From a virus: DNA of 64,000 nt. The position numbers and the translations under genes were made by a program. The stretch spans positions 1-64,000 of IMG/VR virus record IMGVR_UViG_3300037809_000520; one strand, 5' to 3'. This document shows positions 8,428 to 51,677 of this stretch, one piece after another. Positions within the stretch are counted from its first letter, which is position 1; the number at the start of each line of letters is the position of its first letter. A model generated the notes under the pieces. That model had not been told where the DNA came from. It did no database searches and was given only the letters and a program-made list of their open reading frames with translations.

Positions 8428-10071
8428 TTAAAGAGTGTTTAATCCTTCAACATAAATTTTACCATAAAATTCCGGGCGTACCACTTTCTTAGCATAACGA
8501 GTAAGTAAACCTTTTCTTGGAGTGAAGGTTGCTGGATCGTATACTAAAGGAGTCATGATTAACGGAATGTATGGAGCAAATACAGCACCAGCTTCTAAGA
8601 ACTGACCACCTCTGAATCCCATTAAAATGGTATTTTCAGTCATGTATGGGTTCTTATAAACAGTGTATCTTGAATTGATAGTACCTGCTTTTTGTACACC
8701 AAATGCGTAGCTCATTTTAGCTGCATCACCATCAGAAGTACTAGCAAATCCTGGAATAGATTCGATAATAGTAGCTACTGTTGGAGAACATACCATGAAA
8801 TTAGCTCCACCTCTAAGAGTTTTCTGGTGAATTATATTACTTAACTTCTGAACTTTAGTTCCTAAAGTTTGGAACCATTGTCCTTGTGAGTTATAGAAAC
8901 CTAAATCTGCATCTACAACACCTGTTGAAGCTAATGATAGGTTGTTCTGTGCACTCCAGTACTCAGTACCAGCAGCAGCAGATTCGATCAACATATCAAG
9001 AATTTCTAAATCAATTTCTAATGAGATATACTCACTCATAATTGAAGTTAATTCAGCTTCAGCATCCAAAGAATGGTAAGCGTTAAGATCTTGAGCGAAC
9101 TCAGGAGTCCAAACAGCTTTCAATTTACGAGTCTTAGCAACAATTGCTTCTGACTGCATTTGAATGTTGATTTCAGGAATAGTGATTGGATCATTATTAC
9201 CATTTAAGTTAGTGTTACCTTCTTCAAAATCACCTCTTTGAGCGTCATTTGTTTGCATTAAGTACTCAACTTTTAAACCAGTACCAGCTTCAATAACTGA
9301 TGAACTAACATAAAATTCAATGTTTTCACCATTGATTTTAGTAAATTGTGGGTATTGAGTTGTTACTGCTGGAAATGTTGTCGTTGCCGAACCTGATAAA
9401 TAGAAACCTCTAACGGCTCTTTCATCAAAGTTAGGTAATGAAGAAGTTGGAATTGCTAAACATACAATCTGATCAGTAGCACCGGCAACATAAGATTGAG
9501 ATACTGAAGAATCAGCATTTAAATCTGTGTACCAATCAACAGAACTAGAAGCTACTGTATAAGCAGCAGATTGAGTGTTGTTAATTGAATATCCAAATCT
9601 ACCAGCACCATAAAGACCACCTGTAGCACCGTTACCAAATGGAGTATTTCCATCAGTAGCACCATATAGTGAATCACCTGCTGTGAATGGTTGTTTAGTA
9701 GTTCCGTATTGGAAATCTAAATAAAATACTAGACCAGAAGGTAGATTCATTGGTTGAACCGAAACGAATTCTTTCGCTGCGATTTGACCAAATACCTTTC
9801 TTACTAGTGGTAAAGCTACACCCGCCCATTGTGCTCCTGTTCCAGGAGTAAATGTACCTGCTCCAGGAAGTGGACCACCGGTATTGCTTTCTTCCATAAC
9901 TAATTGCTTAGCTTGGTTTTCAAGGATCATAGACATATTGTTTTTCTCAGTTTCGTTACCGATACCTTCTAACAAGCCTGTCTTGTTCCATTTGTTGGCT
10001 AATCTTGCAGCATCACTTTGTAATGACTTGTAAGGATTAGCGCTTTCTAAAAGAGAATTTAATTGACTCAT
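8428..10071 (-). CDS. gp23: Major capsid protein, gp23-like
   Basis: A 547-residue HK97-fold capsid protein of the T4 gp23 family, about the length of T4 gp23 (521). After a Glu-rich N-terminal region of about 60 residues comes QWAGVALPLVRKVFGQI and EFVSVQPMNLPSGLVFYLDF, strongly typical of gp23. The N-terminal region holds candidate prohead protease sites (ILE at 49-51, LLE at 33-35), consistent with T4, where about 65 residues are removed. Codon use looks more GC-rich than its neighbours, as expected for a highly expressed gene. It follows the scaffold gene by 43 bases and ends at a strong terminator. Confidence 0.95.
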   Translation of the reverse strand: MSQLNSLLESANPYKSLQSDAARLANKWNKTGLLEGIGNETEKNNMSMILENQAKQLVMEESNTGGPLPGAGTFTPGTGAQWAGVALPLVRKVFGQIAAKEFVSVQPMNLPSGLVFYLDFQYGTTKQPFTAGDSLYGATDGNTPFGNGATGGLYGAGRFGYSINNTQSAAYTVASSSVDWYTDLNADSSVSQSYVAGATDQIVCLAIPTSSLPNFDERAVRGFYLSGSATTTFPAVTTQYPQFTKINGENIEFYVSSSVIEAGTGLKVEYLMQTNDAQRGDFEEGNTNLNGNNDPITIPEINIQMQSEAIVAKTRKLKAVWTPEFAQDLNAYHSLDAEAELTSIMSEYISLEIDLEILDMLIESAAAGTEYWSAQNNLSLASTGVVDADLGFYNSQGQWFQTLGTKVQKLSNIIHQKTLRGGANFMVCSPTVATIIESIPGFASTSDGDAAKMSYAFGVQKAGTINSRYTVYKNPYMTENTILMGFRGGQFLEAGAVFAPYIPLIMTPLVYDPATFTPRKGLLTRYAKKVVRPEFYGKIYVEGLNTL

Positions 10072-11450: not shown

Positions 11451-12053
11451 TTATATTATTGGACATTGTCCATGTGAGCATAATATCTCACTTAATATAC
11501 TATTTACATTCTTATATTTGTCTTGTGCTTTAAATTCTTTGCTTTCTCTTACTAAATGCATAAATGAATCTGGGTTGGAAGGAGTTGAAACAAAATCCCA
11601 ACACAATAATTCAAAATCATCTTGAACTTCCATCAATTCACCTTTTTGTTCTAATGAACCCATTCCTCTTGATGATACCCCAACAGTAATACCATTTTCA
11701 ACTAATGCTTTAAGTATATTTCCATTTGGTGTTGGTAGAATTTCAATTTTACCCATTACATTATCACCATCCCACCACATATCAGAAACATTATGTGATA
11801 CATTTTGAAGATTTATTACTGATGATTCTGGGTGGTCTAATTCCCCCATAGCTCTGTGTTCATCAACTAATACTCTATATTTGTCAATTTCTCTATCCCA
11901 TAATTCTTTAGAATAGTATCTACCATTTCCATTTTTTACTTCAGCAGTAGCTAGTACTCCCTCAACTAAAGGTAAACCCCTTTTCGAACGAGATTCATTT
12001 AGAGTTACTCCCTTAGGTTTAAATACGTGTGTTTCTATTAATAATTGACTCAT
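11451..12053 (-). CDS. gp21: Prohead core protease, gp21-like
   Basis: A 200-residue serine protease of the T4 gp21 family. NGRYYSKELWDREI (43-56), GELDHPESS (70-78, with His74) and VGVSSRGMGSL (124-134, with Ser127 or Ser128) match the family's conserved blocks and supply His and Ser of the active site. DFELLCWDFVSTPSNPDSF (about 145-163) is the typical C-terminal block. It cleaves scaffold, capsid and internal head proteins at (L/I)-x-E sites. Its own N-terminus has LNE (18-20), a likely self-processing site. Placed just upstream of the scaffold gene. Confidence 0.92.
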   Translation of the reverse strand: MSQLLIETHVFKPKGVTLNESRSKRGLPLVEGVLATAEVKNGNGRYYSKELWDREIDKYRVLVDEHRAMGELDHPESSVINLQNVSHNVSDMWWDGDNVMGKIEILPTPNGNILKALVENGITVGVSSRGMGSLEQKGELMEVQDDFELLCWDFVSTPSNPDSFMHLVRESKEFKAQDKYKNVNSILSEILCSHGQCPII

Positions 12054-24099: not shown

Positions 24100-24606
24100 T
24101 TACGGTGTAGTAGAATATATATATTCGTTAAATTGAAGATTGATATACTTGTCATATGGCATCGTACCCACATTATAAGCAAATTTATCTTTACCAATAG
24201 GAGCTTCATTTTTATTAATAAACCGTTTACGTTTTGTAACAAAATCTATTAAATATTGCTCTGGGTCTTCTTGTTTTTTTAATTGAGGGTGATTAGCTAA
24301 TATTGGTTTAATTCTTTTTACTATATCTTCTACCGAATCTCTTTCGTATGCCATTTCGGCTATATCTTCTTCTTTAATTACACCTTCAGATAAATCTATA
24401 TATGATTTCAAATCATCAAGTAAATCTTTATCTGTAGAGTTTTCATAGGCATCAGGTTCAAAATTTCCATCGAGTTCATCTATATAATCTTCAATATATT
24501 CATCCTCTATGCCTTTTTCTTTTCCTAATTTCCTAACTCTTGAAGCAATTTCATCTGCAGTTACACCTTCTGTAAGGAATTGTCTAAATCTGTATAGTTC
24601 TTTCAT
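24100..24606 (-). CDS. Putative internal head protein with tag variant
   Basis: A 168-residue acidic protein beginning MKELYRFRQFLTEGVTADE, a divergent version of the tag with cleavage-like L-T-E (11-13) before Gly. Most of the body is acidic and helical (residues about 25-110), followed by KKQEDPEQYLIDFVTKRKRF and a non-charged tail with several Tyr. No enzymatic motif. It lies 10 bases upstream of the gene starting at 24089 and 7 bases after the previous member of the array. Confidence 0.6.
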   Translation of the reverse strand: MKELYRFRQFLTEGVTADEIASRVRKLGKEKGIEDEYIEDYIDELDGNFEPDAYENSTDKDLLDDLKSYIDLSEGVIKEEDIAEMAYERDSVEDIVKRIKPILANHPQLKKQEDPEQYLIDFVTKRKRFINKNEAPIGKDKFAYNVGTMPYDKYINLQFNEYIYSTTP

Positions 24607-24613
24607 TTTATTT

Positions 24614-24964
24614 TTATATTATATCTTGTATTTTAGTATATTGATCTGCAGTTAGAACATCAAAAGTATAATCTTCAAAATCACCACCATCATAAAGTAT
24701 AGTTGATACTGCTCCAGCAATATCATTTCTTAATTCTTTTGAATCAGCATTTAAAGCTTTAACTGCCTTAACATAATCTTTAAATGTGTTCATAGCTTCA
24801 TCGGATACTTTTCCAAATTCAGCATCAACACCACCAGCATCAATTACATCATCATTTCCTACTTTAATTTCTCCTGCTGCCCATTCTGACCAGTAGTCTC
24901 TTAAATTATCTTCTTTTAGTAGCCTACCTTCAGCTAAATATTTTTTTAAATTGAAATTTTCCAT
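24614..24964 (-). CDS. Putative internal head protein with capsid-targeting tag
   Basis: A 116-residue protein; the ATG at 24962-24964 was chosen over a longer frame (start 24997) because it yields the common tag MENFNLKKYLAEGRLLKED and avoids overlap with the upstream gene. The L-A-E site (10-12) is followed by an acidic, helical body of about 95 residues with DAGGVDAEFGKVSDEAM and YDGGDFEDYTFDVL. No recognisable fold. Cleavage at L-A-E would release a protein of about 104 residues. Confidence 0.62.
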   Translation of the reverse strand: MENFNLKKYLAEGRLLKEDNLRDYWSEWAAGEIKVGNDDVIDAGGVDAEFGKVSDEAMNTFKDYVKAVKALNADSKELRNDIAGAVSTILYDGGDFEDYTFDVLTADQYTKIQDII

Positions 24965-24980
24965 TTTTATTTTATTTATT

Positions 24981-25382
24981 TTATCTCCAAAATTCACTTC
25001 CTTCTACCATCCAACGTTCAAAATCTTTATCAGAATGTACAAACTCTACACCTTTTGGATTTCCTATAAAGTAATCATCAAGCATTTGTTCTGTATCAAT
25101 TTCAAATCCTAAATACTCTGACATTTTATCTTCATTAGTTTCTAAAAATTTGTCTCCATTTTCGGATGTAAAGTCTTTTTTATCTTCTTCAACGTTTGCA
25201 GGATCAGTAAAATATCCATAGTTAATATAATCTATAAATTCTTCTTCTAATTTTTTTACATCAACATCCATGTATTTGGTATAACTAAAGAAATCAAGTA
25301 ATTCTTGTCCTCTTAGCTTAGTGATGTCTTCTTTTAATAGTTTACTTTCAGCTAAATACTTTTTTAAATTGAAATTTTCCAT
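24981..25382 (-). CDS. Putative internal head protein with capsid-targeting tag
   Basis: A 133-residue protein with tag MENFNLKKYLAESKLLKED, the L-A-E site being followed by Ser. The body is acidic (DVKKLEEEFIDYINYGYF, EEDKKDFTSENGDKF) and ends with an aromatic-rich segment (DFERWMVEGSEFWR). Unrelated in sequence to its neighbours past residue 20. It starts 11 bases after the preceding gene and is followed 16 bases later by the next start. Confidence 0.62.
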   Translation of the reverse strand: MENFNLKKYLAESKLLKEDITKLRGQELLDFFSYTKYMDVDVKKLEEEFIDYINYGYFTDPANVEEDKKDFTSENGDKFLETNEDKMSEYLGFEIDTEQMLDDYFIGNPKGVEFVHSDKDFERWMVEGSEFWR

Positions 25383-25393
25383 TTACTTTTATT

Positions 25394-25762
25394 TTAAAAG
25401 TTAAGTGCTATTTTTTTAGCTGTTTCTCCTTCTTCAGGGGTTATTAATCCTTGTTTAACATGAACATCAATAGCATCTAGAACAGACTCACGATCTGCTC
25501 CTGTTCCAACATCTAAATTTGCTTGTTTTACCCACTCGTCTTCTAAAGCCATGTAATCTTCAATAGACATTGTTTTAGGAGCGGGTAAAATATTACTTTT
25601 AATCCATCCAGCATCTTCTACATCAAAGCCAAAATCATCCGGTGAGGTAAGTACATCTTTAATGTAGTCATTACCACCAAACATAATAGTGGTGTCAACC
25701 ATTATCTCTTCTTTTAATAGTTTACTTTCAGCTAAATATTTTTTTAAGTCAAATTCTTTCAT
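25394..25762 (-). CDS. Putative internal head protein with capsid-targeting tag
   Basis: A 122-residue protein with tag MKEFDLKKYLAESKLLKEE and the L-A-E site at 10-12. The body differs from other members: TTIMFGGNDYIKDVL and an EF-hand-free acidic region, then EEGETAKKIALNF at the C-terminus. It contains both helical and beta-prone stretches and no Cys. No function can be assigned. Confidence 0.62.
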   Translation of the reverse strand: MKEFDLKKYLAESKLLKEEIMVDTTIMFGGNDYIKDVLTSPDDFGFDVEDAGWIKSNILPAPKTMSIEDYMALEDEWVKQANLDVGTGADRESVLDAIDVHVKQGLITPEEGETAKKIALNF

Positions 25763-25773
25763 TGTTATATTTT

Positions 25774-26295
25774 TTATATAAAATTAGATAAACCCCATTC
25801 CCCATCTCCTTCTGAGCTAGGCATATAATATTTTATTAGGGGTTTGAATATTTTCTCCATACCCGATTTTCTAACCTTAATAATTTCATCTTCGATTCTT
25901 GTTGATCTAATACTACTTATAAGCTTTTCAAATTCGGGTGTGATTTCATCCAATTTGAAGGTGAAAATAGCGTAATTCCCCATCATATCAACACCCGGTT
26001 GTTTCCTTCTTTCGTTTATGTATTTTCCTTTAAAAAAGGAATCACCTATTGTTTTTACAAATACATCTGTGGGTGTATCTTCATCACCAACAGATCCATT
26101 AACCCTTATAGCTGTTACACCCCCTATTGGTTTCTCCTCAAACACCCTTGATATTTCCTCTTTGATTATTTTACGTAGTTCCGATTTTTTCATTTTATTT
26201 GGTTTTATAAAATCTTTATACCTTCCTGTTTTAATTAAATGTTCTTCCAATAGAGGATTTTTTGATATAAATGTTTTTAAGTCAAAATCTTTCAT
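25774..26295 (-). CDS. Tagged protein with two different N-terminal tags in tandem
   Basis: A 173-residue protein. It begins with the first tag type (MKDFDLKTFISKNPLLEEHL) and then, at residue 35, carries the second tag type (MKKSELRKIIKEEISRVFEE) that starts other genes. The gene therefore looks like a fusion of two tagged openings, or the true start could be the internal Met at 26193. The body (about 55-173) has alternating beta strands (AIRVNGSVGDEDTPTDVFVK) and basic patches, with a folded-domain look, unlike the acidic members. Function unknown. Confidence 0.6.
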   Translation of the reverse strand: MKDFDLKTFISKNPLLEEHLIKTGRYKDFIKPNKMKKSELRKIIKEEISRVFEEKPIGGVTAIRVNGSVGDEDTPTDVFVKTIGDSFFKGKYINERRKQPGVDMMGNYAIFTFKLDEITPEFEKLISSIRSTRIEDEIIKVRKSGMEKIFKPLIKYYMPSSEGDGEWGLSNFI

Positions 26296-26315
26296 TTTTA
26301 TTTTATTGGTTTATT

Positions 26316-27347
26316 TTAATTAAATCTTCTGCTTATATTAGTTGCTTCACCAGCTACTACTTTACCATTTTGTAAAAGAACAACTCCATTAGCTGAATCA
26401 CCATCAGCTTCTGAATTGTTAATAAGTCTATTTAGTTCTTCATAATACATATCCAAATTATCTTCTATGTGTTTATTAAAGACACTTTCCCAATTATCTC
26501 CAGCTGCATCTAATTCATCTGTAAGTCCAAATTTTCTTTCAAAGTGTTCGATATCCCAATAACTTTTAATAGAATCTTTTATATATTCTTCTTTACTATC
26601 ATAAACAATATAATCAGGACCTTCATCATTCCAAAATATCATGTGGTACATTCCTGGTTTAAGGTCAATCATATATTCATCACTAAATTGTTCTTCTTCA
26701 GAAGAAGCATCATGTTCAGCTCTATTTCCTATATAAAGTTCTTGATAATCATCATGGCTAAGTATTGTAGCCATATCTATATCTTCTTTTAATAGCTTAC
26801 CTTCAGCTAAACCTGATAGTTTATCTTTAGCCCATTCTTTAGCCAATTTTACGGCTTCATCTTTAGAATAAAATCCTTGTTCTACAGCATTCATTATCTC
26901 ATAATAGTCATCGCTTACAATTTCTTCAGCAGATGCATCTATAATACCCTGAAGATATACTTCAGGTTCTACTACCATAGCACCCATTGCACCTTCAAAT
27001 TCATCTTCCATTTCTGGGAAGTCTATAGCTTCATTTAATAGCTTACCTTCAGCTAAATATTTTTTTAAATCGAAATTTTCCATTTGGGTTTGTTTTATAT
27101 TATGTAATTTATCATACCATGCTTTATATTCGGGATCTCTAAGAAGATTAGCTGTAACCATATCTGACATTGCATCAAATCCACCATTATCAAAACGATC
27201 TAGTTCATACTGAGCATCATCTGGGTCTTTAACGTATTTCATGATAATATCAAGTAACGCATCCATACTTTCATCATCAAAGACTGTAGGTTCGTTTTCA
27301 AATAGCTTACCTTCAGCTAAATATTTTTTTAAATCGAAATCTTTCAT
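26316..27347 (-). CDS. Fusion of two or three tagged internal head proteins
   Basis: A 343-residue protein. It starts MKDFDLKKYLAEGKLFENE, but a second complete tag, MENFDLKKYLAEGKLLNEA, begins at residue 89 (27083), and a third partial copy, LAEGKLLKEDI, at about residue 179 (near 26812). Just before the second tag the text HNIKQTQ looks like a translated intergenic gap. Each tag would be a prohead protease site, so the product may be cut into three pieces of about 75-160 residues. Bodies are acidic and unrelated. An alternative is separate genes with internal starts. Confidence 0.62.
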   Translation of the reverse strand: MKDFDLKKYLAEGKLFENEPTVFDDESMDALLDIIMKYVKDPDDAQYELDRFDNGGFDAMSDMVTANLLRDPEYKAWYDKLHNIKQTQMENFDLKKYLAEGKLLNEAIDFPEMEDEFEGAMGAMVVEPEVYLQGIIDASAEEIVSDDYYEIMNAVEQGFYSKDEAVKLAKEWAKDKLSGLAEGKLLKEDIDMATILSHDDYQELYIGNRAEHDASSEEEQFSDEYMIDLKPGMYHMIFWNDEGPDYIVYDSKEEYIKDSIKSYWDIEHFERKFGLTDELDAAGDNWESVFNKHIEDNLDMYYEELNRLINNSEADGDSANGVVLLQNGKVVAGEATNISRRFN

Positions 27348-35144: not shown

Positions 35145-35353
35145 AAAACTAATTTATTTAATTCTTTAATAATAACTTGTATATCATCTTTTGATAAATT
35201 ACCACCACTATACCATTGTTTTATTTGGTTTGCTAATAAATTAACATCTACTTTTATAGGCAAATCATTGGGGGTAGTAATTAGTGGGTTAGTACTTCTG
35301 GACCTTAATGATCCTTCTTTATATCCTTTTGATAAAGTATTTGATTTATTCAT
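35141..35353 (-). CDS. Small protein, unknown function
   Basis: A 70-residue protein lying between the multi-enzyme gene and the zinc-ribbon gene; its start overlaps the upstream stop by 4 bases (35350-35353) and its stop overlaps the next start by 4 bases. RSRSTNPLITTPNDLPIKVD is a likely flexible linker; DDIQVIIKELNKLVL is a C-terminal helix. The double overlap argues that it is real and translated with its neighbours. Confidence 0.55.
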   Translation of the reverse strand: MNKSNTLSKGYKEGSLRSRSTNPLITTPNDLPIKVDVNLLANQIKQWYSGGNLSKDDIQVIIKELNKLVL

Positions 35354-37908
35354 AATCCTAATGCTTTAAGTTGGTTGATTGTATCCTGGGTTGATGTATG
35401 TAATATACCAATACCCCCAGCTTCAATCCATTGTTCTATATTTGATTTTCTATCATCAATTAAAATATGGTTAGGTTCAGCATAATTCTTTTTATTATAA
35501 GCTTGGGCTAATGTTAATTTAACTCCAGGCATGTTATTTCTAACCCATAATCTTTTTCCTAATCTTGAGGTTTGTGATCTTGATGGGGATGATAGTAATT
35601 CTACATCATAATCTTTAATATAATTCCAATAGTCTTTACCATCTTCCATCCAAGGCATCCCTACCCAAAATCCAACTTTACCTTTACCATCAATTAATTC
35701 CCAAAATCCATCTTCCCCAAACTTTTTTTCATATTCTCTGGGTGGTATTCCTTTAGAGTACTTTTCAAATGATTTATCAAAATCTGTTAATACACCATCC
35801 ATATCTGAATATATTTTATATTCCATAGGGGGTGAAGATACAACCTCTTCTTCAGGTATCAAAACTCCTTCAGCAATTTCTCTAGCAAATTGATTTAAAC
35901 CAAATGGATCTTTACCTAATTTGGGATCAAATCCCTGTTTTTCATCTAAACTATCAGTCCAATTTCTAAATGTCATTGTACCTTTTAAATTAGCTTCAGC
36001 TTCAATATCATTTAACTCATCATCTTCTTGAGTATTTGTTGTTGTAATATTACCTAATCTACCTTCTAGATTTTGGGTATGATGAACCATTTCATGGGAA
36101 AATGAACGTACAATATCTTTTGGATGTCTGCCTTCAGTGTATAATACAATTGTTTGAGAATTTGGATCATAATAAGCAGTTTTACCTAAAAACTCTTGAG
36201 CATTACTACGATCACCATTTATGAATTTTAAATTAGGTAAGGGTTGAATATTCATCCCCTTATCTATCATATGCTTAGTTAATTTAGCTATCTCTTTTTT
36301 AATATCTATATTTTGAGAATATGAAGCATTTTCATTTAATGGTTTTCCTCTTTTAGAATATCTTCCTTCTACTTCAAAATTATTACTTAATGTAGACAAT
36401 ACCTCTTGTGTTTTTTGGGTTTCTCTATATAATCCCCCTGTCCAGTGATCTTTAACTGTTGAAAAACCCCAAGGCCCTCCTGCTTCTTTAATTTTATTCT
36501 CAACCCACCCACTTAAATCATAATAATTAGATTTTTGTTTAATTATAACAAATGTTTCTCCTTTTTCAAGTAAATCCTGGTCTGTTAATTGATCCATAAA
36601 ATTTTTTGCTCCCTCTAAAGTTTTTGAAAATGAGATATTTTTTCCATTATAATTTGTCCAAATATATTCTCTTAAATCTGGGATTTTGGTTGCATTCTTA
36701 ATGGATAAAATTCTATATATTGTTCCAAAATCTTTATAGCCTAATTGTTTTAATTTTAAAACAAATACTCTATTAATTGAAGAACTATCATGTACTCCTC
36801 CTTTTCCTAACCAATCTTCAACATATTTATCTAAATCTATTTCTTCATTTAAGTTTTCTTTTAAAACTGTTCCTTCAGGAAGTTCTAATGAATCAAAAAA
36901 ATCTTGAGCTATTTTTAATAGTTTTTCTTTTATTTCTGGTTTTAAATTAAGATCATCCCAAACATCTTTTACTAATGTATCTTGTATATCAAAACTATCG
37001 ATTACATCTTTTTCAATATTTTCTTGAAGAGCGATTACAGGGGTAGATGTTTTAAAATCTTTTTTACGCATTACTGTTTTTGCATACATTTCAATATCAT
37101 CATCAGTAACATTTATAGCAAATGGTATGTTTATGTTATTATTAAAATCCTTAACAACAGCATCAAAATCATCATCTATTTTAGATAGTGGTTTACCATG
37201 TTTTTTATGTAAACGTTTAAACATCCCTATAAGTTCAGCTACTGTAATTGGTTTTTTATTTCTTTTATCATTTAATCTATCTAAAAAATGCCTAGTAAAT
37301 TCAATATCAATACCCAATTTATTAAATAATCCATCAGCATATTTTTCAATTGAGTCTAATTGGGGTTTAGTAATTTCTTCTTTAATAATTGGTCTTAGAA
37401 TATTAAATACATCTTCTTTTTCTTTATCATCTAATTCATCTGGTAGGAATGGTGCTAATTCATCGGATGATACTTTGGCTGCTTTTCTAGCATTGGTACC
37501 ACTCATACCTTTATCTTGAGTAATTTGTACTTTTACTTTCATATTAGGGTAAGCTGATTCTATATTTTTAGTTCTATTTTCAATATCTTCTAAATCATCA
37601 TCTCTTCCTTCTCTTCCTCCTATAATAAAATAAACCTCATCTTCAGGATTATTTTTCCCTAAACGAATAATATCACCAATTGGTGATTCAGCAGGCTCAA
37701 TCTTAACTTTCATGGGTAAATATTTTTTAAATATATCCCAAATTAAAATAGCTTCAGCTTGACTTACCCCATTTCTTTCCTTACTTCCAACATAGATAAT
37801 AAATTCATCTATTTCAGGGAGAGATTTTAATGCTTTTTTTACTACCTCTAAATGACCTTTAGTAGGTGGTTTAAAACCACCTCCGTATGCTGCTATTACT
37901 TTACTCAT
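35350..37908 (-). CDS. Multi-enzyme protein: nucleotidyltransferase, ART-like, zinc peptidase-like, HAD phosphatase
   Basis: An 852-residue protein with several domains. (1) Residues 1-145: nucleotidyltransferase of the NMN adenylyltransferase / cytidylyltransferase type, with GGFKPPTKGHLEVVKKAL (T/H-x-G-H motif ending at His19) and the second motif GMSGTNARKAA (134-144). (2) About 385-510: IYRILSIK (Arg399), NISFSKT (Ser426-Phe-Ser) and RETQKTQEVL (Glu502), the R-S-E order of an ADP-ribosyltransferase, though the Q/E-x-E element is imperfect. (3) FSHEMVHHTQ (603-612): H-E-x-x-H zinc peptidase signature, with EAEAN downstream as a third-ligand candidate. (4) About 697-852: HAD phosphatase with SDMDGVLTDF (701-710). 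N-rich, L-N-E type junctions (PLNENAS, ENLNEEI) could be protease cut sites. The gene overlaps both neighbours by 4 bases. Confidence 0.72.
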   Translation of the reverse strand: MSKVIAAYGGGFKPPTKGHLEVVKKALKSLPEIDEFIIYVGSKERNGVSQAEAILIWDIFKKYLPMKVKIEPAESPIGDIIRLGKNNPEDEVYFIIGGREGRDDDLEDIENRTKNIESAYPNMKVKVQITQDKGMSGTNARKAAKVSSDELAPFLPDELDDKEKEDVFNILRPIIKEEITKPQLDSIEKYADGLFNKLGIDIEFTRHFLDRLNDKRNKKPITVAELIGMFKRLHKKHGKPLSKIDDDFDAVVKDFNNNINIPFAINVTDDDIEMYAKTVMRKKDFKTSTPVIALQENIEKDVIDSFDIQDTLVKDVWDDLNLKPEIKEKLLKIAQDFFDSLELPEGTVLKENLNEEIDLDKYVEDWLGKGGVHDSSSINRVFVLKLKQLGYKDFGTIYRILSIKNATKIPDLREYIWTNYNGKNISFSKTLEGAKNFMDQLTDQDLLEKGETFVIIKQKSNYYDLSGWVENKIKEAGGPWGFSTVKDHWTGGLYRETQKTQEVLSTLSNNFEVEGRYSKRGKPLNENASYSQNIDIKKEIAKLTKHMIDKGMNIQPLPNLKFINGDRSNAQEFLGKTAYYDPNSQTIVLYTEGRHPKDIVRSFSHEMVHHTQNLEGRLGNITTTNTQEDDELNDIEAEANLKGTMTFRNWTDSLDEKQGFDPKLGKDPFGLNQFAREIAEGVLIPEEEVVSSPPMEYKIYSDMDGVLTDFDKSFEKYSKGIPPREYEKKFGEDGFWELIDGKGKVGFWVGMPWMEDGKDYWNYIKDYDVELLSSPSRSQTSRLGKRLWVRNNMPGVKLTLAQAYNKKNYAEPNHILIDDRKSNIEQWIEAGGIGILHTSTQDTINQLKALGL

Positions 37909-38702
37909 GAATTTAAGAATTTTTCTATTCTCATTTGTGCCTCTTCTTTAGACATAGTATATTCAATTACATCATATATAAAATCATCACTTAACATAGT
38001 TTGAATTTCTTCTTTATCTTTAGCTTTTCTTTCATCAGATCGTTTTTGTTGAGCCGGTGTTTTAGGTTTAGTTCCTGTTGGTTTAAAGGGAGTTAGATAT
38101 TTTTTAATAATTTTTTCTATATCTTCCATTCTATTATCTAATGTATTAGCTACTGCTATGAAATTATTACCAAATAAATCAGCATATTTAGGTAAATTAT
38201 CTGTTACATCTTTCCAAGTACGCATCACAATAGCAGGTGCTAAACTCCTATCTTTACCTTCTGATTTTTCATATCTATCTTGATTTTGAGTTAATGAACG
38301 TTCTAAATCAGTATAAACATAAAGCATCATTACTTTATATCCCGCTTCTTCTAATTCATTTTTTAATTTTGCTGTTTGATTATATGAAGCTCCTGTACCA
38401 TCTAAAATAAATGATTCTTTTCCTTCAATAGTAGCTTCTACATCACCCTTAAATTGTTTATTAGCAGCTGCCATTTGTTTAGCTTGCTCACTTCTTTCTT
38501 CAGGAGTAGCATTTTTTAAATCTAAAGTTACATTAGCTTTTTGCAACATTGGAACATAGATATCATCTACATTTAATATCTTTAAACCCGCTAAATCTAA
38601 ACCACGTAAAATATACCCTTTACCTGCTCCTGGAGCTCCTGCTAATATAATTGCTTTAGGTTCAGCAACTGCTTCTTTTAATAATTGAATTAATGAAATC
38701 AT
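37905..38702 (-). CDS. P-loop kinase, polynucleotide kinase/zeta-toxin-like
   Basis: A 265-residue P-loop protein. Walker A is LAGAPGAGKGYILRGL (20-35), with ILNVDDIYVP as the substrate-binding Asp region and FILDGTGASY as the next conserved segment. The arrangement fits polynucleotide-kinase or zeta-toxin-like kinases that phosphorylate a small substrate or a nucleic acid end. It starts MISLIQLLKEAVAE, where L-K-E (8-10) before Ala resembles the capsid-targeting tags. C-terminal Lys-rich region, about 205-265. It overlaps the multi-enzyme gene by 4 bases. Confidence 0.72.
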   Translation of the reverse strand: MISLIQLLKEAVAEPKAIILAGAPGAGKGYILRGLDLAGLKILNVDDIYVPMLQKANVTLDLKNATPEERSEQAKQMAAANKQFKGDVEATIEGKESFILDGTGASYNQTAKLKNELEEAGYKVMMLYVYTDLERSLTQNQDRYEKSEGKDRSLAPAIVMRTWKDVTDNLPKYADLFGNNFIAVANTLDNRMEDIEKIIKKYLTPFKPTGTKPKTPAQQKRSDERKAKDKEEIQTMLSDDFIYDVIEYTMSKEEAQMRIEKFLNS

Positions 38703-43679: not shown

Positions 43680-46600
43680 TTACTCTATTGGATATTTTTT
43701 AGTATCATTATCTTCATCGGCTCTGAAAGCATTTTTAGCACTTAATTGATTTATTATAGTTTGTACATTTCTTTTTTGCTGAGCTGAAAAATCATTAGGG
43801 ATTAAATATCCTGATGGTGATAGGGTTTTAACTCCTTCTGAGCCTGTTGGGGCTGTTTGGTATATTACTACTCTATCATCAGCTTCAATTCTTCTTCTAA
43901 GAGTAAAATTAAAAATTTGACCTGATGGAATAGGAATATCTAAGGTTCTTGGATCTGGGTGTACCATTACTTTATCAAAAGTATGGGCAGATGCAGTCAT
44001 TCTTACAAGACTTGGTCCTCTTACCGAAACCATTGATGATTTCATAGTATCCCCATATCCATCTGGAGGGAATATAGAGTTTTCATATTCATCATTTGGA
44101 CCATTATCTGTAATAGTAAAAGTTTGAGTGTATAATCCACCCACAATAGAATTAGGTCCTACTGAGTTGTAATCTACTCTGATTTCATCTCCTACTTGAA
44201 ATAATATAGGTTGTTGGAAATCTTCAAAATTTGTAACATTATCATCACTGTTATTAGTAGTAAGTTGAAAATCTTCATAAACATAATTAGAAGGATTTGC
44301 AAAAAATGGCTCTTTAACTAATTGAATAGTATCTGCAGATCCTCCTGTATTTTTTATATTATTTGGTATTCCCGGGAGGACTACAGCTACCCCACTTATA
44401 GAAGCTGTAGAATAGATACTTCTTGAAACATATTGGTTAAAAGTATTAACCAATGCTAATCCTCTACCAGCATAACATATTGATGTTCCTAAATCTACAC
44501 TTGCACTAACCCCGAAACTTGATGACATTATTAATGATGCTCCCATCAAATATAATGAAGAATCTGTACTTCCTGTTAATAGTGAAAAAGCAGATTGGGA
44601 TTGGACCGTTGAAAATAGTACACTAGCAGTTAAATAATATGATGATGATGGTAATGTAATTGTATTAATAGCTGTCCCCGCAAGCCCATACATCCTTGAC
44701 CAACTTGAACTTACAAAACTTTGTGTAGTTGCATGGTTATTTTTTTCAATTTGGTTAGTTATTATATTTTGATATTCCATTGATCCTTGATATATCTGAC
44801 TTTCTCCTACTTTAAGTGAAGTATAATTAATAGTAGCAGAAGAACCTGATTTAGATATTTTTCCTTGGTTATAGGCTACTAATGCTTTTCTATCAACTTC
44901 AAATGTACTTCTAACTTCTGTTAAATTTTCACCACTTCCATCAACTTTAATTACAACTGGGTTTTCTGGGGCTTTTTCCCCTTGCACACTATCTAAAGGA
45001 CACTCAATAAGTTGATCAATATTAAAAGTATAACTACCCCATAATTCATTGGATTGTTTAGATGTTCTAAAATGAGCAAAATAAATAGGATGTTTTGCAA
45101 TAGTATTAACTTCTACATTTATTGAAGGCATTGAACCTGGGAGTGAATCCCCACCATAAACTGGGCTTTGAGCATAAGTATAAACTACTGGCGCACTGGA
45201 TTTATTATGAACTAATATTCCATTAGCATAATAATTATGGTTATTACTAACACTTGATAAATAGTATACAGTAGTTAATTTTATTTCGGTTGTTATCGAT
45301 GAAACTATAATATCATCCCCTTTTATATCTTGACAGATATCATTAACTTCTATTTTAGATGCTTTTACCCATCCTTTTTCTTTCACATAAAATGGGTGTT
45401 CTTCAGTAGTATTAATTATATTACCATCATTAAAAGTTATAATTATTATTGACTCGGCTTCATGAGATGATACATCACCAACAATTCCTTCTTCATTCTT
45501 ATTATCAAGTTCATTATAAGTTATAATACTTTCACCCTTTACTACATCTTCAATATTTTTAGTACTACCATTAAATAGTGATATTTGGGTTCCAGGAGTG
45601 AAGCAGAGAACAAAAGTTTGGAGAGATTGATTGGATCCCGATAATAAAGTACCAGGTACCCCCCCATTTAAATAAGCAATTTCACTTCCTGATGGTGTAT
45701 ATGAATTATAATTAGCACTTTGTAAAGTACTCCCCACATATCTTGGAAGAATTGATGATTTTTGAGTATAAAAACTATCAGGTATATCTGCTTTAATAGC
45801 TGATCCTGATATAATAGGTATTACATTTGAAGGTACACCTGATGATCCTGTTGAAGAACCTCCATCAAATTCTGCTACTTGTAAGTAAGTATTAGCTCTA
45901 CTTCCAGTAATATTATTAATTAAAGGGTTAAATGGAGAGTTATTAAATATTGTTAAATTTGGAAGTTGAGGTGATGGAGTTATATTTTGTAAACCTTGGT
46001 TTGAGGTTGGAGTAAATATAGGGGTTGATGAACCACTTAATGCTCTACTTTGTAGTTGATTATAAACCCATCCTTGTCCTACTCCTGATGTGTTTGAAAA
46101 AGAAATTTTCCCATCAATAACTGTTAAATTTTGACTAAAATAATTACCTACTAAACCATATATATCTTCTGTTGTTGGTGTGCCTGTATAATTTGGAATT
46201 TCATATGTAAATTGTTCATTAAATGCTAAAGTATCTGTATTATCTACAGGATTATTATCAGAATCATAACTAATATTATTAAATGCCGTTATTATTGGGG
46301 CATAATTACCAAAATCTCCATAAGATCCTGTCCATGTAGTTCCTACAAAAGTTGCACTACCACTTCCGGGTTTTGGGGCTGAGCCTTTAATAATCCAACC
46401 TAAAGCTTCTGAAGAAATATAATCAAAATTAGACATATATATAGGGACTGTAATTGGTCCTGTAAGAGCATCTTCATATCCTCCACCCTGTGGTATATTT
46501 TGATCTAATCTAATAACTCTAGCATTGTTTGTTGAGGGATTATTAAACCAATATTTTGTTAGTCCATATGCATTTGATCCTATATTTCCATATGCTGTAG

Positions 46601-49600
46601 CTGTGGATGCTACCTGTTTAGTAATTATATCATTTCCCCCAAAGAAGGATGAAATTAAAATATTACTATCTAAATTTCCCAATAATCCTGTTTGATCAAA
46701 ATCAACAGGACCTGTTATAGGATCAAAAAAAGTATTATTAATTGATCCTGATATATCAAATTTAAGATAAGGTCCTACATCATTAGGAACAATTTGTCCA
46801 TCTTGAATTCCAAACATACCTGATGCTGAAACTGGTGGGTGAGGAATTGCCTGTAGAGGAAGTAAATTATTATCATCATATCCTAATAAACCTGCGGGTT
46901 CATAAGATTGTGCTGCAGTATTTCCTAATACATCCATTAGAGTAGGAAGAATTAATCCTACAACCCAAAAATTATGGTTATCTAAATGAGATTGTTGAAT
47001 GAAAATAGATCCTGTTAAAGTGGAGTTTGGATTATTTGCTTCCCAATTATTAAAATCATCTTGCAATTCATCTAATTTACCGTATTCTTTTTGATTTACA
47101 ACTAAATTAAATGAAAATGAAGGATAAGTATTAATTGGAGTTCCATAAGAGTTACTCCATTGTCCTTTACTTGAGGTAATTGCTAATTTATAAGATATAT
47201 CATTTATTTCAGCTGTTGTGTAGGGATTATCTAACAGTGATTGGGTTGTAACTATTATTTCACTTCCGCTAAATTCTCCATTATAAAATTCATCCTGTGA
47301 TTTATGTATTTCATAAACACTACCAGATATAGTTTCATTTCTTACAATGTAAGATTGTGTATTAAAGGAATTCCATATACTTGATGAATATGGAATTGGG
47401 GTTGTAGGAGATCCTATAAAATCATTATTTGTGGCAGCAACTGAAGCTAAAGGTGTGAAATAAATATATGATAAATTAACAGATTTTGGGGTAGCAGGAT
47501 CTGACATTAAATCTAAACCTTTAACCCAAAATGATATGTCTTCTTCTGGCAGCATTTCATAATACGATGTGCTTGCAGGAGTGTTAATTGGAGTCAATGA
47601 AGCTGAGGATATAATATCTGTGCCTATAATACCTCTTTTTGAAGATGAAACAGCAAATTCAAACCCCTCATCATATCCTAAGAAATTAGTTGTGTTAGAA
47701 TTAAAAAATTTAAATCTTGTTTTTAAAGGTTGTTTTAATCTAATACCTTGTGTGGGTCCTGAACCAAAATTTGAATCTACTATATCTCCATAACTATTTA
47801 TTACTCCACCAGCTCTAATAAGGTTAGTGTATTGACTAGGGATATTAGTGGGTGATGTTTGTGAGTAAAACAAGAAATAAGCAGATTGAGTTACTTCAAC
47901 ATTATAAGGATCTAATACCCCACCTGTTCCTCCTCCTATAGTAGCTACATCAATACTTCCGGTAATTTCTAAATCTCTATATGAAATGGGGCTATTTATT
48001 CCTTCAGCTGTTGATTGACCCCCTACTACGGACCCCGTTTCTGGTGTGTAAGCTATTATAGTATTTGGATTAACTTTTACAGGGACGCGGCGATTGCGCT
48101 CCAACATATGTTGTTTAATTATAACACCTGTAGTTACGCTAGTACGTGCTGGAACATATGATTTAATGGCTTTAAATAATGAATTATCAAAATATTTAAT
48201 TAATCTTAAATAATCCCAAACATCACCTTCTGTATATTTTTTAAAATATTCGTTTGCAATTTGTCTTAATTTTGGATAATAAGACTCTGTTGAATCATAA
48301 GCAAATCTAGGATCTGCTAACACATCAGAAATAACACCATATCCATAAGTTGCTATTATATCATCATTAACCTCGTCTTGAGGTGAAAAACCTACTTCTA
48401 GACTTGTTATATCCTCAGTATAACTCTGACTTATTAAATAATCTTGATCTATACTTCTATATTTAGATAATACTGTACCATAATCCTCACCATCATTAAC
48501 TTGAATTTTATTTGAAATTCTATTTCTAATACCAATTGCTGGTTGATCTAAAAAGTAAGTTTCTACATTAGGTTTACTATATGTGTAGATTGATGCTGCC
48601 TCATATCCTATAAAATCATAACTTGAAGTTAAAGCACTAGTAGCAGGATCAATAAATGATTGGGTAAATATCATAGGTGCTGAGCCTGTTATTGCAGGGT
48701 GTGAAGATGATATTAATGTTGTAAAAGATTGACTTATAGATGATGTAAATTTATATTCTAGCTCATTACCCAAAGGAGCTCTAAAATTAACTATATCAAA
48801 TGAAGATTCAGACCCTGTAACATTATTACCCTCAACAGACTCTGGATTCATTACAAAATCATTAAAGGTTTCTTTTGAAATATTATTTGAATAATATCTA
48901 AATTCTTGAAAGGATCCTGAAAATATTTTAGCTCCTTCATTTAATACCTCAGACATTACATCTGAACCAGACACATATCCTCCTACATAAACTCCATCAA
49001 TATCAGATACCCCAAATCTATTCCATGATTCATTTATAGAAGGTGAACTTGCTGAAGGATCATCATATATTGTACTATTATATGTTCCCCCTCCATATCC
49101 TGAATTAAAAGCTACATTAGCTGAACTCATACTCACTGATCCTGACCACCCTAATGAATTACCATCCCAACCATCTACTTGCTTATTAGCCGCAAATAAA
49201 GTATAGGTAGTAGCATCCGCACTATCGTTAGTATGAGTATCTCTTTGTAATAATACACTCCACCAACCCCCATCAAAGAAGGGTAAGGAAATATCATTTG
49301 ATATTTGTACTCCTCCATCTGCTGTTGAAGCAGACATATAAAATCTTAATTTACCATAATTGTAATAATCACTAAAACTAGATCCTGAATATGATCCTGA
49401 TGGTTGATCTTCATAAAATAAACCAATCCCCCAATCCATTTGTTTGTCATTAGTTCCATTTGATTTTTTAACAGCTAATGATTGACTATAAAATTTACCC
49501 CCATAACTTGATGAAGGATGACCTGTAGTTTTAAATCTAAAAGCAACACCATCTGGTACTATATACTCATTGTCCGCTATTTTGTTACGTTGTAATGGCA

Positions 49601-51677
49601 TCCATGGTACTTTAACCGATGAACTTGCCATATATTGACTAGCAACTGGGGTATACGCGTAACTATAACGTTTATACCATAAGTCATAATCATCCGAGTT
49701 GTCTTTATTTTTACCCCCAAATTCATTAATTCGAAGAATTGTATTTGGAACACCCCAAATATTAATTAATTGTCTTAAACCACTAATTGTACCTTTTTTC
49801 TTAGTAAGATAAGCCATATTATGATAAAGACGTTTGTAAATTTCTTTACTTACTTTATCAATAGCATAAGGCCATCCAGGTTCATTTATCTGTTCAACAT
49901 AATTAAGCCATGAATATCCTAAATTCCAATAATTTATAATTTGACCATTATTTACAGCTATATAATCTGTAATTAATTCACTCCCTGTTGGGGGTACATA
50001 GATTCCATTATCCTCACCTGTTAAACCTATAAAATTATCTTGGTTATCATAATTATTTCCAAAAGTTTCAAATCCTAAACCTTTAATAGCTTCTGCCGCT
50101 AAATCTAAAGGTAAACCTGATTCAGGATCGTTTGTTGTATTATATCTTTCACTTAATGCTCTAGTATATAACCATACTTCATCAAATGATTGACCTACCA
50201 TATTTGAAAATTCTACATATTCATCATTATCTGAATTTTCAGTAATAAAAGTTGGTATTGTATAATATAACCAATTTTGATTATCCTCATCATATAAAGA
50301 AGCTGATAATTTATATCCACCATAATATTGAGTATTTTCAACATCACTACCCACCCATGTTAATACTTCAGTACTCCCTGTTGCTAGAAGAGTATAAGGA
50401 TATGAAGATCCTGTTTTAGGGTATGCATATGATGATGATTCATGATAAAGATAACTTTCATACCCATCAAAGTTTTTAACTAAGTTTGTTATGTTAGTCT
50501 GTAAACTTGCTAAACTTTGAGATATTTCTGTTACATTTGGGTTAGAACCAGTTGTTAATATAATAGCATTAATATCTGATTGATATGATTGTATTTGGGA
50601 TACTTTTTCATAAAAATTATTAATTCTTTGCTTTGCTGATGAGAAGTTAATAAATTCATTAAAAGTATTATATGAATAATTGGGGGTAATTGTTACTCCC
50701 GTTTTATTTAAATGATTTAAAACATTATCTAAAGATTTTGATGATGGGGTTGAAATTAAATCATCATAAGATTTTAAAGTAGTTGAATTATTAATTAAAT
50801 CTTGAAGGGGGATATTAACATTAGGGCCCTTAATGTAGTTAGCATTATCTATAAATGATGAAAAATCTTGAATAAATTCAACTTTATAAGCTATAGATTC
50901 TCCCACTTTTGTAACAACATACGATAAATCATCTACTTTATATTGTTGCGGGAGAGGATCGAATAGTTTGATTAAAACTGATGGAGTATCTCCATCACTA
51001 TCAAGTATAATATTAATAGCAACTACATAATTATTTTCAAATAATCCAATATAAAACTCATCAAAATATTCTGATGAATTTAATTTACTATTTAAATTGA
51101 TAAACCCTTGCTTTATATCTGTTGTAGGGATAGTATTAGAACTTAATCTAATTTCTGTTCTGTCCCCGGATATTTCTGATATATAATAATTTTTTTCTAT
51201 TGATGAATTTAATTCATAATTGATAAAATTATAAAACGCAAAAACTTCTCCATTATCAAATCCTCTATTATATAAATCTGTTGTTGGAGAAATTGTAATT
51301 TCATTAGTTGGTATTACATTAATTTCATCCGGACTTTCAATAAGACCCGCATCATTAGTAAATTCTGTAGATACATCTGGGTTGGATGTGTTGTTTGTTA
51401 TACTCCAATCAGTAAAATTATAATCTTGACTAATTAGTGATTTTTGAGAATCATATACATAAAATTCAATTAAACTCCCACTTTGAAAAAAGGATCCTGA
51501 TATGTTTTCATTAGGAATTATTTCAGAATTAGCAAATTCATACCCTGTACTGACTATTTCACTAGCTGGTATTGAGGTACAAGATGCACTAATATTAATA
51601 CTATTATCATCAAATAATGGTACTAATGGGTCTTCGGTGTTAGGGTTGAAATTTATGTATGTATCGTTACTTTCCAT
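43680..51677 (-). CDS. Giant baseplate wedge-type protein (gp7-like) with LamG and Hint domains
   Basis: A 2665-residue virion protein, the largest in the window, lying where gp7 is expected. N-terminal part: extended, Asn/Ser-rich. Residues about 610-655 (KRLYHNMAYLTKKKGTISGL, GVPNTILRINEFGG) are the segment I associate with phage baseplate wedge proteins. About 705-950 is a LamG/concanavalin-like beta sandwich (FRFKTTGHPSSSYGGKFY, GGWWSVLLQRD). A Hint domain occupies 2025-2158 (see separate entry). The last 500 residues are Ser/Thr-rich. It is expected to link the hub to the fibres. If Hint cleavage happens, the N- and C-parts would separate. Confidence 0.75.
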   Translation of the reverse strand: MESNDTYINFNPNTEDPLVPLFDDNSINISASCTSIPASEIVSTGYEFANSEIIPNENISGSFFQSGSLIEFYVYDSQKSLISQDYNFTDWSITNNTSNPDVSTEFTNDAGLIESPDEINVIPTNEITISPTTDLYNRGFDNGEVFAFYNFINYELNSSIEKNYYISEISGDRTEIRLSSNTIPTTDIKQGFINLNSKLNSSEYFDEFYIGLFENNYVVAINIILDSDGDTPSVLIKLFDPLPQQYKVDDLSYVVTKVGESIAYKVEFIQDFSSFIDNANYIKGPNVNIPLQDLINNSTTLKSYDDLISTPSSKSLDNVLNHLNKTGVTITPNYSYNTFNEFINFSSAKQRINNFYEKVSQIQSYQSDINAIILTTGSNPNVTEISQSLASLQTNITNLVKNFDGYESYLYHESSSYAYPKTGSSYPYTLLATGSTEVLTWVGSDVENTQYYGGYKLSASLYDEDNQNWLYYTIPTFITENSDNDEYVEFSNMVGQSFDEVWLYTRALSERYNTTNDPESGLPLDLAAEAIKGLGFETFGNNYDNQDNFIGLTGEDNGIYVPPTGSELITDYIAVNNGQIINYWNLGYSWLNYVEQINEPGWPYAIDKVSKEIYKRLYHNMAYLTKKKGTISGLRQLINIWGVPNTILRINEFGGKNKDNSDDYDLWYKRYSYAYTPVASQYMASSSVKVPWMPLQRNKIADNEYIVPDGVAFRFKTTGHPSSSYGGKFYSQSLAVKKSNGTNDKQMDWGIGLFYEDQPSGSYSGSSFSDYYNYGKLRFYMSASTADGGVQISNDISLPFFDGGWWSVLLQRDTHTNDSADATTYTLFAANKQVDGWDGNSLGWSGSVSMSSANVAFNSGYGGGTYNSTIYDDPSASSPSINESWNRFGVSDIDGVYVGGYVSGSDVMSEVLNEGAKIFSGSFQEFRYYSNNISKETFNDFVMNPESVEGNNVTGSESSFDIVNFRAPLGNELEYKFTSSISQSFTTLISSSHPAITGSAPMIFTQSFIDPATSALTSSYDFIGYEAASIYTYSKPNVETYFLDQPAIGIRNRISNKIQVNDGEDYGTVLSKYRSIDQDYLISQSYTEDITSLEVGFSPQDEVNDDIIATYGYGVISDVLADPRFAYDSTESYYPKLRQIANEYFKKYTEGDVWDYLRLIKYFDNSLFKAIKSYVPARTSVTTGVIIKQHMLERNRRVPVKVNPNTIIAYTPETGSVVGGQSTAEGINSPISYRDLEITGSIDVATIGGGTGGVLDPYNVEVTQSAYFLFYSQTSPTNIPSQYTNLIRAGGVINSYGDIVDSNFGSGPTQGIRLKQPLKTRFKFFNSNTTNFLGYDEGFEFAVSSSKRGIIGTDIISSASLTPINTPASTSYYEMLPEEDISFWVKGLDLMSDPATPKSVNLSYIYFTPLASVAATNNDFIGSPTTPIPYSSSIWNSFNTQSYIVRNETISGSVYEIHKSQDEFYNGEFSGSEIIVTTQSLLDNPYTTAEINDISYKLAITSSKGQWSNSYGTPINTYPSFSFNLVVNQKEYGKLDELQDDFNNWEANNPNSTLTGSIFIQQSHLDNHNFWVVGLILPTLMDVLGNTAAQSYEPAGLLGYDDNNLLPLQAIPHPPVSASGMFGIQDGQIVPNDVGPYLKFDISGSINNTFFDPITGPVDFDQTGLLGNLDSNILISSFFGGNDIITKQVASTATAYGNIGSNAYGLTKYWFNNPSTNNARVIRLDQNIPQGGGYEDALTGPITVPIYMSNFDYISSEALGWIIKGSAPKPGSGSATFVGTTWTGSYGDFGNYAPIITAFNNISYDSDNNPVDNTDTLAFNEQFTYEIPNYTGTPTTEDIYGLVGNYFSQNLTVIDGKISFSNTSGVGQGWVYNQLQSRALSGSSTPIFTPTSNQGLQNITPSPQLPNLTIFNNSPFNPLINNITGSRANTYLQVAEFDGGSSTGSSGVPSNVIPIISGSAIKADIPDSFYTQKSSILPRYVGSTLQSANYNSYTPSGSEIAYLNGGVPGTLLSGSNQSLQTFVLCFTPGTQISLFNGSTKNIEDVVKGESIITYNELDNKNEEGIVGDVSSHEAESIIIITFNDGNIINTTEEHPFYVKEKGWVKASKIEVNDICQDIKGDDIIVSSITTEIKLTTVYYLSSVSNNHNYYANGILVHNKSSAPVVYTYAQSPVYGGDSLPGSMPSINVEVNTIAKHPIYFAHFRTSKQSNELWGSYTFNIDQLIECPLDSVQGEKAPENPVVIKVDGSGENLTEVRSTFEVDRKALVAYNQGKISKSGSSATINYTSLKVGESQIYQGSMEYQNIITNQIEKNNHATTQSFVSSSWSRMYGLAGTAINTITLPSSSYYLTASVLFSTVQSQSAFSLLTGSTDSSLYLMGASLIMSSSFGVSASVDLGTSICYAGRGLALVNTFNQYVSRSIYSTASISGVAVVLPGIPNNIKNTGGSADTIQLVKEPFFANPSNYVYEDFQLTTNNSDDNVTNFEDFQQPILFQVGDEIRVDYNSVGPNSIVGGLYTQTFTITDNGPNDEYENSIFPPDGYGDTMKSSMVSVRGPSLVRMTASAHTFDKVMVHPDPRTLDIPIPSGQIFNFTLRRRIEADDRVVIYQTAPTGSEGVKTLSPSGYLIPNDFSAQQKRNVQTIINQLSAKNAFRADEDNDTKKYPIE
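45204..45605 (-). other. Hint (intein-like) domain inside the giant wedge protein
   Basis: Residues 2025-2158 of the giant protein. It begins CFTPGTQISLFNGSTKNIED (nucleophile Cys2025), has the block B motif NTTEEHPFYV (T-x-x-H), KGWVKASKIEVNDIC, and ends NHNYYANGILVHN (His-Asn at the C-terminus). At about 134 residues there is no room for a homing endonuclease. The residue after Asn is Lys rather than Cys, Ser or Thr, as in bacterial-intein-like (BIL) type domains rather than standard inteins, so cleavage may dominate over splicing. Confidence 0.85.

Follow-up and report, generated by a model that had tools for sequence, protein, structure and literature searches.

A modular polyprotein of a T4-like phage with prohead protease-type motifs at its joints, a candidate carrier of head-packaged enzymes

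The 64,000-nucleotide stretch of DNA analyzed here (the window) comprises positions 1 to 64,000 of IMG/VR virus record IMGVR_UViG_3300037809_000520, from a marine virus of bacteria. On its minus strand the ORF list gives an open reading frame (ORF) with an ATG start for a protein of 852 amino acids (aa) (35350-37908). From its sequence, this protein is best understood as belonging to a modular family in which the tripeptide L/I-x-E stands at nearly all module joints. It is probably a cassette polyprotein of head-packaged enzymes, which the prohead protease would separate during head maturation and which would then enter the host along with the DNA. Two other contigs carry parts of the chain, one with 100% identity to residues 1 to 598 and one with 99% identity to the C-terminal 329 residues, so that an assembly artifact is ruled out.

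RESULTS

Modules of the 852-aa protein

Four enzyme signatures reported in the chain by a first-pass annotation, made from the letters alone, were all located. These were T-K-G-H (residues 16 to 19) and S-G-T-N-A-R (approximately residues 137 to 142) of an adenylyltransferase, an R-S-E arrangement as in ADP-ribosyltransferases (ARTs), and, in the module alignments, H605-E-M-V-H609 of a zinc peptidase and D702-M-D704 of a HAD phosphatase. The accompanying proposal that one chain holds several separate enzymes was borne out by Pfam, PHROG, and PDB profile matches and by the modular family; at least two domains of disparate biochemical activity are present, as is characteristic of polyvalent proteins. 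The modules and their boundaries are listed in Table 1.

Residues 1 to 177 scored above the Pfam cutoff for CTP_transf_like, and module 1 is by sequence an adenylyltransferase. It had been likened to nicotinamide mononucleotide (NMN) adenylyltransferases (NMNAT); the enzyme class held, but the NMN identity had to be changed, as the family profile fits phosphopantetheine adenylyltransferases (PPAT; E value of 8e-5 to PDB structures) at least as well as NMNAT structures (E value of 6e-4 and weaker). Module 2 has a counterpart that is a separate protein in phage Melnitz. The HAD assignment of module 6 was sound, with a match to PHROG 2643 (E value of 5e-25), a PDB profile match to NT5C (E value of 0.002), and the DxD nucleophile motif; on this motif and family profile it classifies as a 5'(3')-deoxyribonucleotidase (NT5C-like HAD). 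In module 5, the HExxH motif and a downstream ExE/A are invariant across 34 relatives, all of which keep the H, E, H, and E residues. Its AlphaFold2 (AF2) model is compact and zincin-like, with a predicted local distance difference test (pLDDT) score of 83. The best PDB alignments of this model were mostly to zincins (Wss1, IrrE, SPRTN, and ArdC; Z of approximately 7, Foldseek E values above 0.04), and a weak Pfam match to MPTase-PolyVal was obtained (E value of 0.04). The annotated zinc-site reading of HExxH thus remains plausible on the model, the structural alignments being of moderate strength.

A family of exchangeable cassettes

A scan of viral contigs yielded 76 loci, from which 46 nonredundant members were compared. 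The adenylyltransferase and the HExxH module were found in all 46, and the HAD module in most, being a separate gene in some. The intervening stretches vary in content, number, and order, giving chain lengths from 418 to 1,507 aa. Among the cassettes were an Fe/Mn superoxide dismutase (SOD) and a plastocyanin in one member (L049), plastocyanin again in a second (L067), the head of a CCA/poly(A) polymerase in a third (L073), and DUF6267 in a fourth (L063); a YunG-like domain, DUF6934, zinc ribbons, additional HExxH modules, and a Pol-beta palm (L078) were also found. In Flavobacterium phage immuto, gp088 and gp087 (annotated as NMN adenylyltransferase and 5'-nucleotidase) present the adenylyltransferase, HExxH, and HAD modules in identical order.

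Short spacers recur at four loci, namely, a zinc ribbon (CDNCGWSW...CHKCGHDN) and KKKDPFGLNxYARELAxGLEE. The possibility that KDPFGLNxYAREL is an internal targeting signal was unsupported, as it was found near the N terminus of no separate protein. In three cyanophages a DUF6267 gene directly adjoins a cytidyltransferase-like gene, and in HTVC008M DUF6267 lies in one cluster with genes for an adenylyltransferase-like protein and a P-loop kinase; these gene groups look like unfused counterparts of the polyprotein.

L/I-x-E at the module joints

Every boundary of the 852-aa protein carries L/I-x-E (IKE177, LQE296, LNE355, LNE526, LDE656, and IAE680), with nine additional copies elsewhere in the chain. 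The first-pass annotation had singled out two L-N-E junctions (PLNENAS and ENLNEEI) as gp21-type sites at domain joints; both are present and belong to what is, by sequence comparison, a family-wide rule. Homology breakpoints fell within 3 aa of [LI]xE for 30% of starts and 41% of ends, compared with 8% of random positions (a four- to fivefold difference), whereas seven control motifs rose approximately 2-fold at most. Likewise, [LIVMF]xE was found within an 18-aa window at 192 of 214 internal module starts (59 expected). Inside three of four many-copy modules [LI]xE was depleted, with 0 copies observed against 9.8 expected, 39 against 70, and 11 against 35. All counts in this section take related sequences separately, and their ratios weigh more than their totals.

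The joint before the module termed GKYD was available in 31 distinct copies, and in every one of them P1 is Glu and P3 is L, I, M, or V. The residue at P2 differs among the copies, as do the codons. The constraint is therefore at the protein level, and DNA-level recombination was ruled out as the source of the motif because the codons vary and the P3 and P1 residues do not.

Separate cassette genes and their leaders

Several cassettes also occur as separate genes, and in many of these copies a ten-residue leader (e.g., MIKLIDLLKE/, where the slash marks the joint or predicted processing position) takes the place of the joint and stops exactly at the start of the internal cassette. The ART-like cassette, for example, reads MIKLIDLLKE/EIDLDKY when standalone and LNE/EIDLDKY when internal. 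Standalone SOD genes begin with MIKLLDLLTE/ or MINLIQLLTE/, and the leaders of the standalone GKYD, DPK, and HAD modules are MQLTLSDILFE/, MIKLIDILFE/, and MSNSIVDLLEAYPLPE/, respectively. SOD genes with such a T4-type capsid-targeting-like leader (MIKLLDLLTE/) were seen at seven loci, which suggests that SOD may be carried in capsids.

The leaders share hydrophobic residues at positions 4, 7, and 8 and Glu at position 10 with the T4 IPII/IPIII leader MKTYQEFIAE/ (from NC_000866). In T4, leader residues 4 and 7 target the protein into the prohead, residues 8 and 10 permit processing, and gp21 cuts after L/I-X-E (PMC9026906). When foreign proteins are joined to IPIII, T4 packages, processes, and ejects them, and Alt is an ART injected from the T4 head (PMC9026906). 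Judged by these substrate rules, L/I-x-E occupies the predicted processing position in the present family, and a protease assigned to the gp21 type by profile and alignment is encoded in the same phage (Table 1).

The ART-like cassette

Residues 356 to 526 are, going by their motifs, likely to be an ART. R399, S426/S428, and E502 supply R, S-x-S, and E/Q-(x)-E in that order, all invariant in five sequences, and their spacing is like that of T4 ModA (R72/S96/E165). Among 1,320 ORFs with a length of 150 aa or more, 254 (19%) contain a loose R-S-E arrangement, which is therefore not significant by itself. A detailed pattern in common with ModA (YRxL...SxSx5AxxF...QEVLx6FxV), which was composed after the sequence had been seen, matched none of 5,713 ORFs outside this cassette. 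Another polyprotein contains a remote homologue (L100:1-693, E value of 2e-9) that keeps YRI, SFT, and E-K-E-VV; its Ser motif follows the Glu motif, giving the order R, E, S that would be expected of a circularly permuted fold.

The competing explanation, that the cassette is an unrelated enzyme in which R, S, and E are arranged so by chance, is the less probable of the two but deserves serious consideration. Besides the frequency of the loose arrangement, it is favored by the lack of a significant match in Pfam and PDB profile searches and by insignificant hhalign comparisons with T4 ModA and ModB, in which the best local alignment was the S-x-S motif in the correct register. The AF2 prediction, made with five close sequences, had a pLDDT of 46.7, too poor for judging the fold, and the ART assignment therefore rests on motifs. 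Against a chance arrangement stand the detailed pattern with its ModA spacing, the invariance of the residues in five sequences, and the retention of the motifs in L100, though in a different order. For the annotated ART-like part, motifs and spacing agree with ModA, but Pfam, PDB profiles, and profile-profile comparison added nothing significant.

Relatives of the cassette were found at six loci in viral contigs, and no distant relatives were found in genome contigs or in the phages collection. The nearest relatives of the 852-aa protein (92% identity over aa 1 to 297 and 76% over aa 524 to 852) lack residues 298 to 523, including the ART-like cassette; the ART-like part is therefore an insert. 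Standalone ART-like genes with the leader MIKL[IV][ND]LLKE/ were identified at L081, L082, and L090 to L092. The L081 version is 181 aa (MIKLINLLKE/EINLDKYVEDW...), with a similar gene in four other contigs. These genes stop at, or within 3 residues of, the PLNE/ end point of the internal cassette, and in related phages the standalone gene is flanked by an oxidoreductase gene on one side and by the terminase region on the other. The pairing of an NAD-making with an NAD-using domain, which the first-pass annotation had considered striking, is consequently incidental to the window phage. A different cassette (L063:7036-7400; GVLYHFTxxLLDIL...ISLTRSLDSY...DEMEEVI) resembles, by eye, an H-Y-E type ART or a DarT-like domain.

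Genomic context

By its gene content, the window represents a T4-like phage's late region. In addition to the features in Table 1, which include the capsid protein and prohead protease, it encodes a portal protein, a primase, and an exonuclease. The ATG of the 852-aa ORF overlaps the stop codon of the upstream gene; the position of this kinase-like gene (37905-38702) directly before an adenylyltransferase recalls the kinase/NMNAT pair of NadR. The tandem genes at 24100-27347 (minus strand) have a near-identical leader (MENFNLKKYLAExxLLKE, MKDFDLKKYLAEG), unrelated bodies, and PHROG matches that are weak at most, making them candidate internal head proteins. Across the whole window, 11 genes have leader-like starts (3.5 expected), a moderate enrichment. 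A 2,665-aa ORF (43680-51677, minus strand) lies among genes near the tail region.

Table 1. Modules of the 852-aa protein and other features of the window (a slash marks a joint or predicted processing position)
Feature	Residues	Position	Strand	Motifs, ends, or leader	Basis or remarks
Modular polyprotein ORF, 852 aa		35350..37908	-		ORF list; 46 nonredundant relatives
Module 1, adenylyltransferase of HIGH/NMNAT-PPAT superfamily	1-177	37378..37908	-	ends ILRPIIKE/	Pfam CTP_transf_like; family profile to PPAT/NMNAT structures
Module 2, PHROG 23027/14518 domain	178-296	37021..37377	-	ends VIALQE/	PHROG match; position shuffled among relatives
Module 3, short	297-355	36844..37020	-	ends VLKENLNE/	order differs in L026/L029/L035
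Module 4, ART-like cassette	356-526	36331..36843	-	R399, S426-F-S, Q-E502-V-L; ends GKPLNE/	separate gene elsewhere; ModA-like motif spacing
Module 5, zincin-like HExxH metallopeptidase	527-656	35941..36330	-	follows LNE/; ends DSLDE/	34-row alignment; AF2 model
Linker	657-680	35869..35940	-	KDPFGLNQFAREIAE/	recurrent spacer of the family
Module 6, HAD, 5'(3')-deoxyribonucleotidase-like	681-852	35353..35868	-		PHROG 2643; NT5C structures; separate gene elsewhere, usually leader-bearing
P-loop kinase/zeta-toxin-like, upstream overlapping gene		37905..38702	-	leader MISLIQLLKE/A	Pfam Zeta_toxin, E value of 1.5e-17; leader spacing
Prohead (head maturation) protease, gp21-like, proposed cutter		11451..12053	-		PHROG 207, E value of 5e-59; alignment with T4 gp21
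Major capsid protein, gp23-like		8428..10071	-	VME/E aligned to T4 cleavage site LTE/A	PHROG 138, E value of 6e-72; alignment
Small-gene cluster, candidate internal head proteins		24100..27347	-	common leader MENFNLKKYLAE/, like a capsid-targeting sequence	differing bodies

DISCUSSION

We favor the reading of the 852-aa protein as a head-packaged polyprotein because the joints, the leaders, the gp21-like protease, the hydrophobic-x-E site of the capsid protein, and the ART-like gene near the terminase all count for it. The modularity, the exchange of cassettes, and the placement of the sites are seen directly in the sequences; that the chain is cut in vivo, that its pieces are packaged and injected, and that each has its assigned activity is what we infer from them. 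The polyprotein may have originated by the in-frame joining of genes, many of which have their own short T4-type capsid-targeting leader elsewhere, each leader having shrunk to an L/I-x-E junction within the chain. It would be made late and then enter the prohead core, where the gp21-like protease would cut after E177, E296, E355, E526, E656, and/or E680. This would set free the adenylyltransferase, the two small domains of modules 2 and 3, the ART-like enzyme, the zincin-like metallopeptidase, and the nucleotide phosphatase of module 6. The products would remain in the capsid, leave with the DNA, and act on host proteins and nucleotides as infection starts. Possible roles in the host are the supply or repair of dinucleotide cofactors for the adenylyltransferase, modification of a host protein for the ART-like enzyme, cleavage of a host protein or completion of processing for the zincin, and an action on nucleotides for the HAD.

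Several observations weigh against this reading. The window protein starts at the adenylyltransferase, with no N-terminal capsid-targeting leader, and it is one of 23 of the 46 members of which this is true, about half of the family bearing a leader. This leaderless half is the main weakness of the reading. The core might bind an internal stretch (ILRPIIKE/ is leader-like), the chain might ride in with a partner, or leader-bearing members alone might be packaged. Leaders are also lacking from the separate HAD in L049/L050 and from DUF6267 in cyanophages P-RSM6 and S-CAM9. The enrichment of the motif in the stretch scanned in standalone SOD genes is modest (14 against 9) because the leader lies further upstream in several of them, and in the first module, the adenylyltransferase, [LI]xE is not depleted (84 against 81).

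A self-processing polyvalent protein as defined by Iyer et al. (2017), in which the embedded HExxH metallopeptidase would cut the joints, either ahead of injection or afterwards, with no part played by the prohead protease, is an unlikely alternative. In its favor, no part of the family is more constant than the HExxH module, which has a zincin-like model and the weak MPTase-PolyVal match, and that article proposes the release of domains by embedded zincins (PMC5512222). The joint motif, however, is that of gp21 (PMC9026906), and it also ends the leaders of separate proteins that have no such metallopeptidase and is found at the aligned processing site of the capsid protein. Less probable still is an uncleaved, unpackaged multifunctional enzyme of nucleotide metabolism whose L/I-x-E motifs are helical linkers that chance to mark recombination points: the functions suit nucleotide or NAD metabolism, and the leaderless members and leaderless separate HAD would be expected, but SOD, plastocyanin, and CCA/poly(A) polymerase cassettes have no common pathway, the combination of fixed P3 and P1 residues with varying P2 and codons is accounted for by neither a linker nor a seed of DNA recombination, and the joint motif is common to the leaders of separate genes.

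If the polyprotein reading is true, the head-assembly protease doubles as a polyprotein processor, and its sequence-readable mechanism connects two known ideas, that of polyvalent proteins and that of head proteins injected by T4. Splitting phage chains at L/I-x-E joints and looking for the ten-residue leader would then be a search tool for listing capsid cargo, including the unexpected SOD and plastocyanin. The broader proposition is that tailed phages of marine bacteria use true modular polyproteins from which the prohead protease frees unrelated complete enzymes inside the capsid, cassettes being freely swapped between the fused form and leader-bearing genes. Such a general delivery system, in which a tag of seven to ten residues would be enough for an enzyme to gain capsid delivery, appears to us evenly balanced between true and false. 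We found no published description of phage polyproteins cut by a prohead protease in the part of the literature that was covered.

In immuto, unlike the window protein, the HAD is encoded apart from the chain by a gene that carries a leader, and an ART-like cassette is absent; its genes are annotated as single enzymes only. In SPN3US and phiKZ, a gp21-related protease likewise cuts several head proteins after a short x-x-Glu, some propeptides repeatedly, but these cuts remove propeptides, and the available portion of the source contains no chain of separate enzymes freed by cuts (PMC10052503). As in T4 Alt, IPI, IPII, and IPIII, leader-bearing members and separate cassettes of the present family have a ten-residue leader of the spacing described above and the L/I-x-E after which gp21 cleaves in T4 (PMC9026906); the T4 internal head proteins are separate genes, whereas here several enzymes share one chain and cassettes are exchanged between phages. 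Polyvalent proteins, as presented in the accessible text of Iyer et al., also have many unrelated enzymatic domains per chain (there ART, zincin, and nucleotide enzymes, of which the first two have candidate counterparts here), are mosaic, are predicted to be injected, are likely released by proteolysis, and were likened to viral polyproteins (PMC5512222). In that text their release is ascribed to embedded peptidases, mostly zincins and some assemblin-like, with no description of capsid-targeting leaders or of L/I-x-E sites (PMC5512222), whereas the joints of the present family bear the site of a separate T4-type prohead protease. The family thus belongs to the polyvalent proteins in the broad sense and would work like T4 injected head proteins in series; what is new is the presence of predicted prohead-protease sites at the joints and the interchange of fused cassettes with leader-bearing separate genes.

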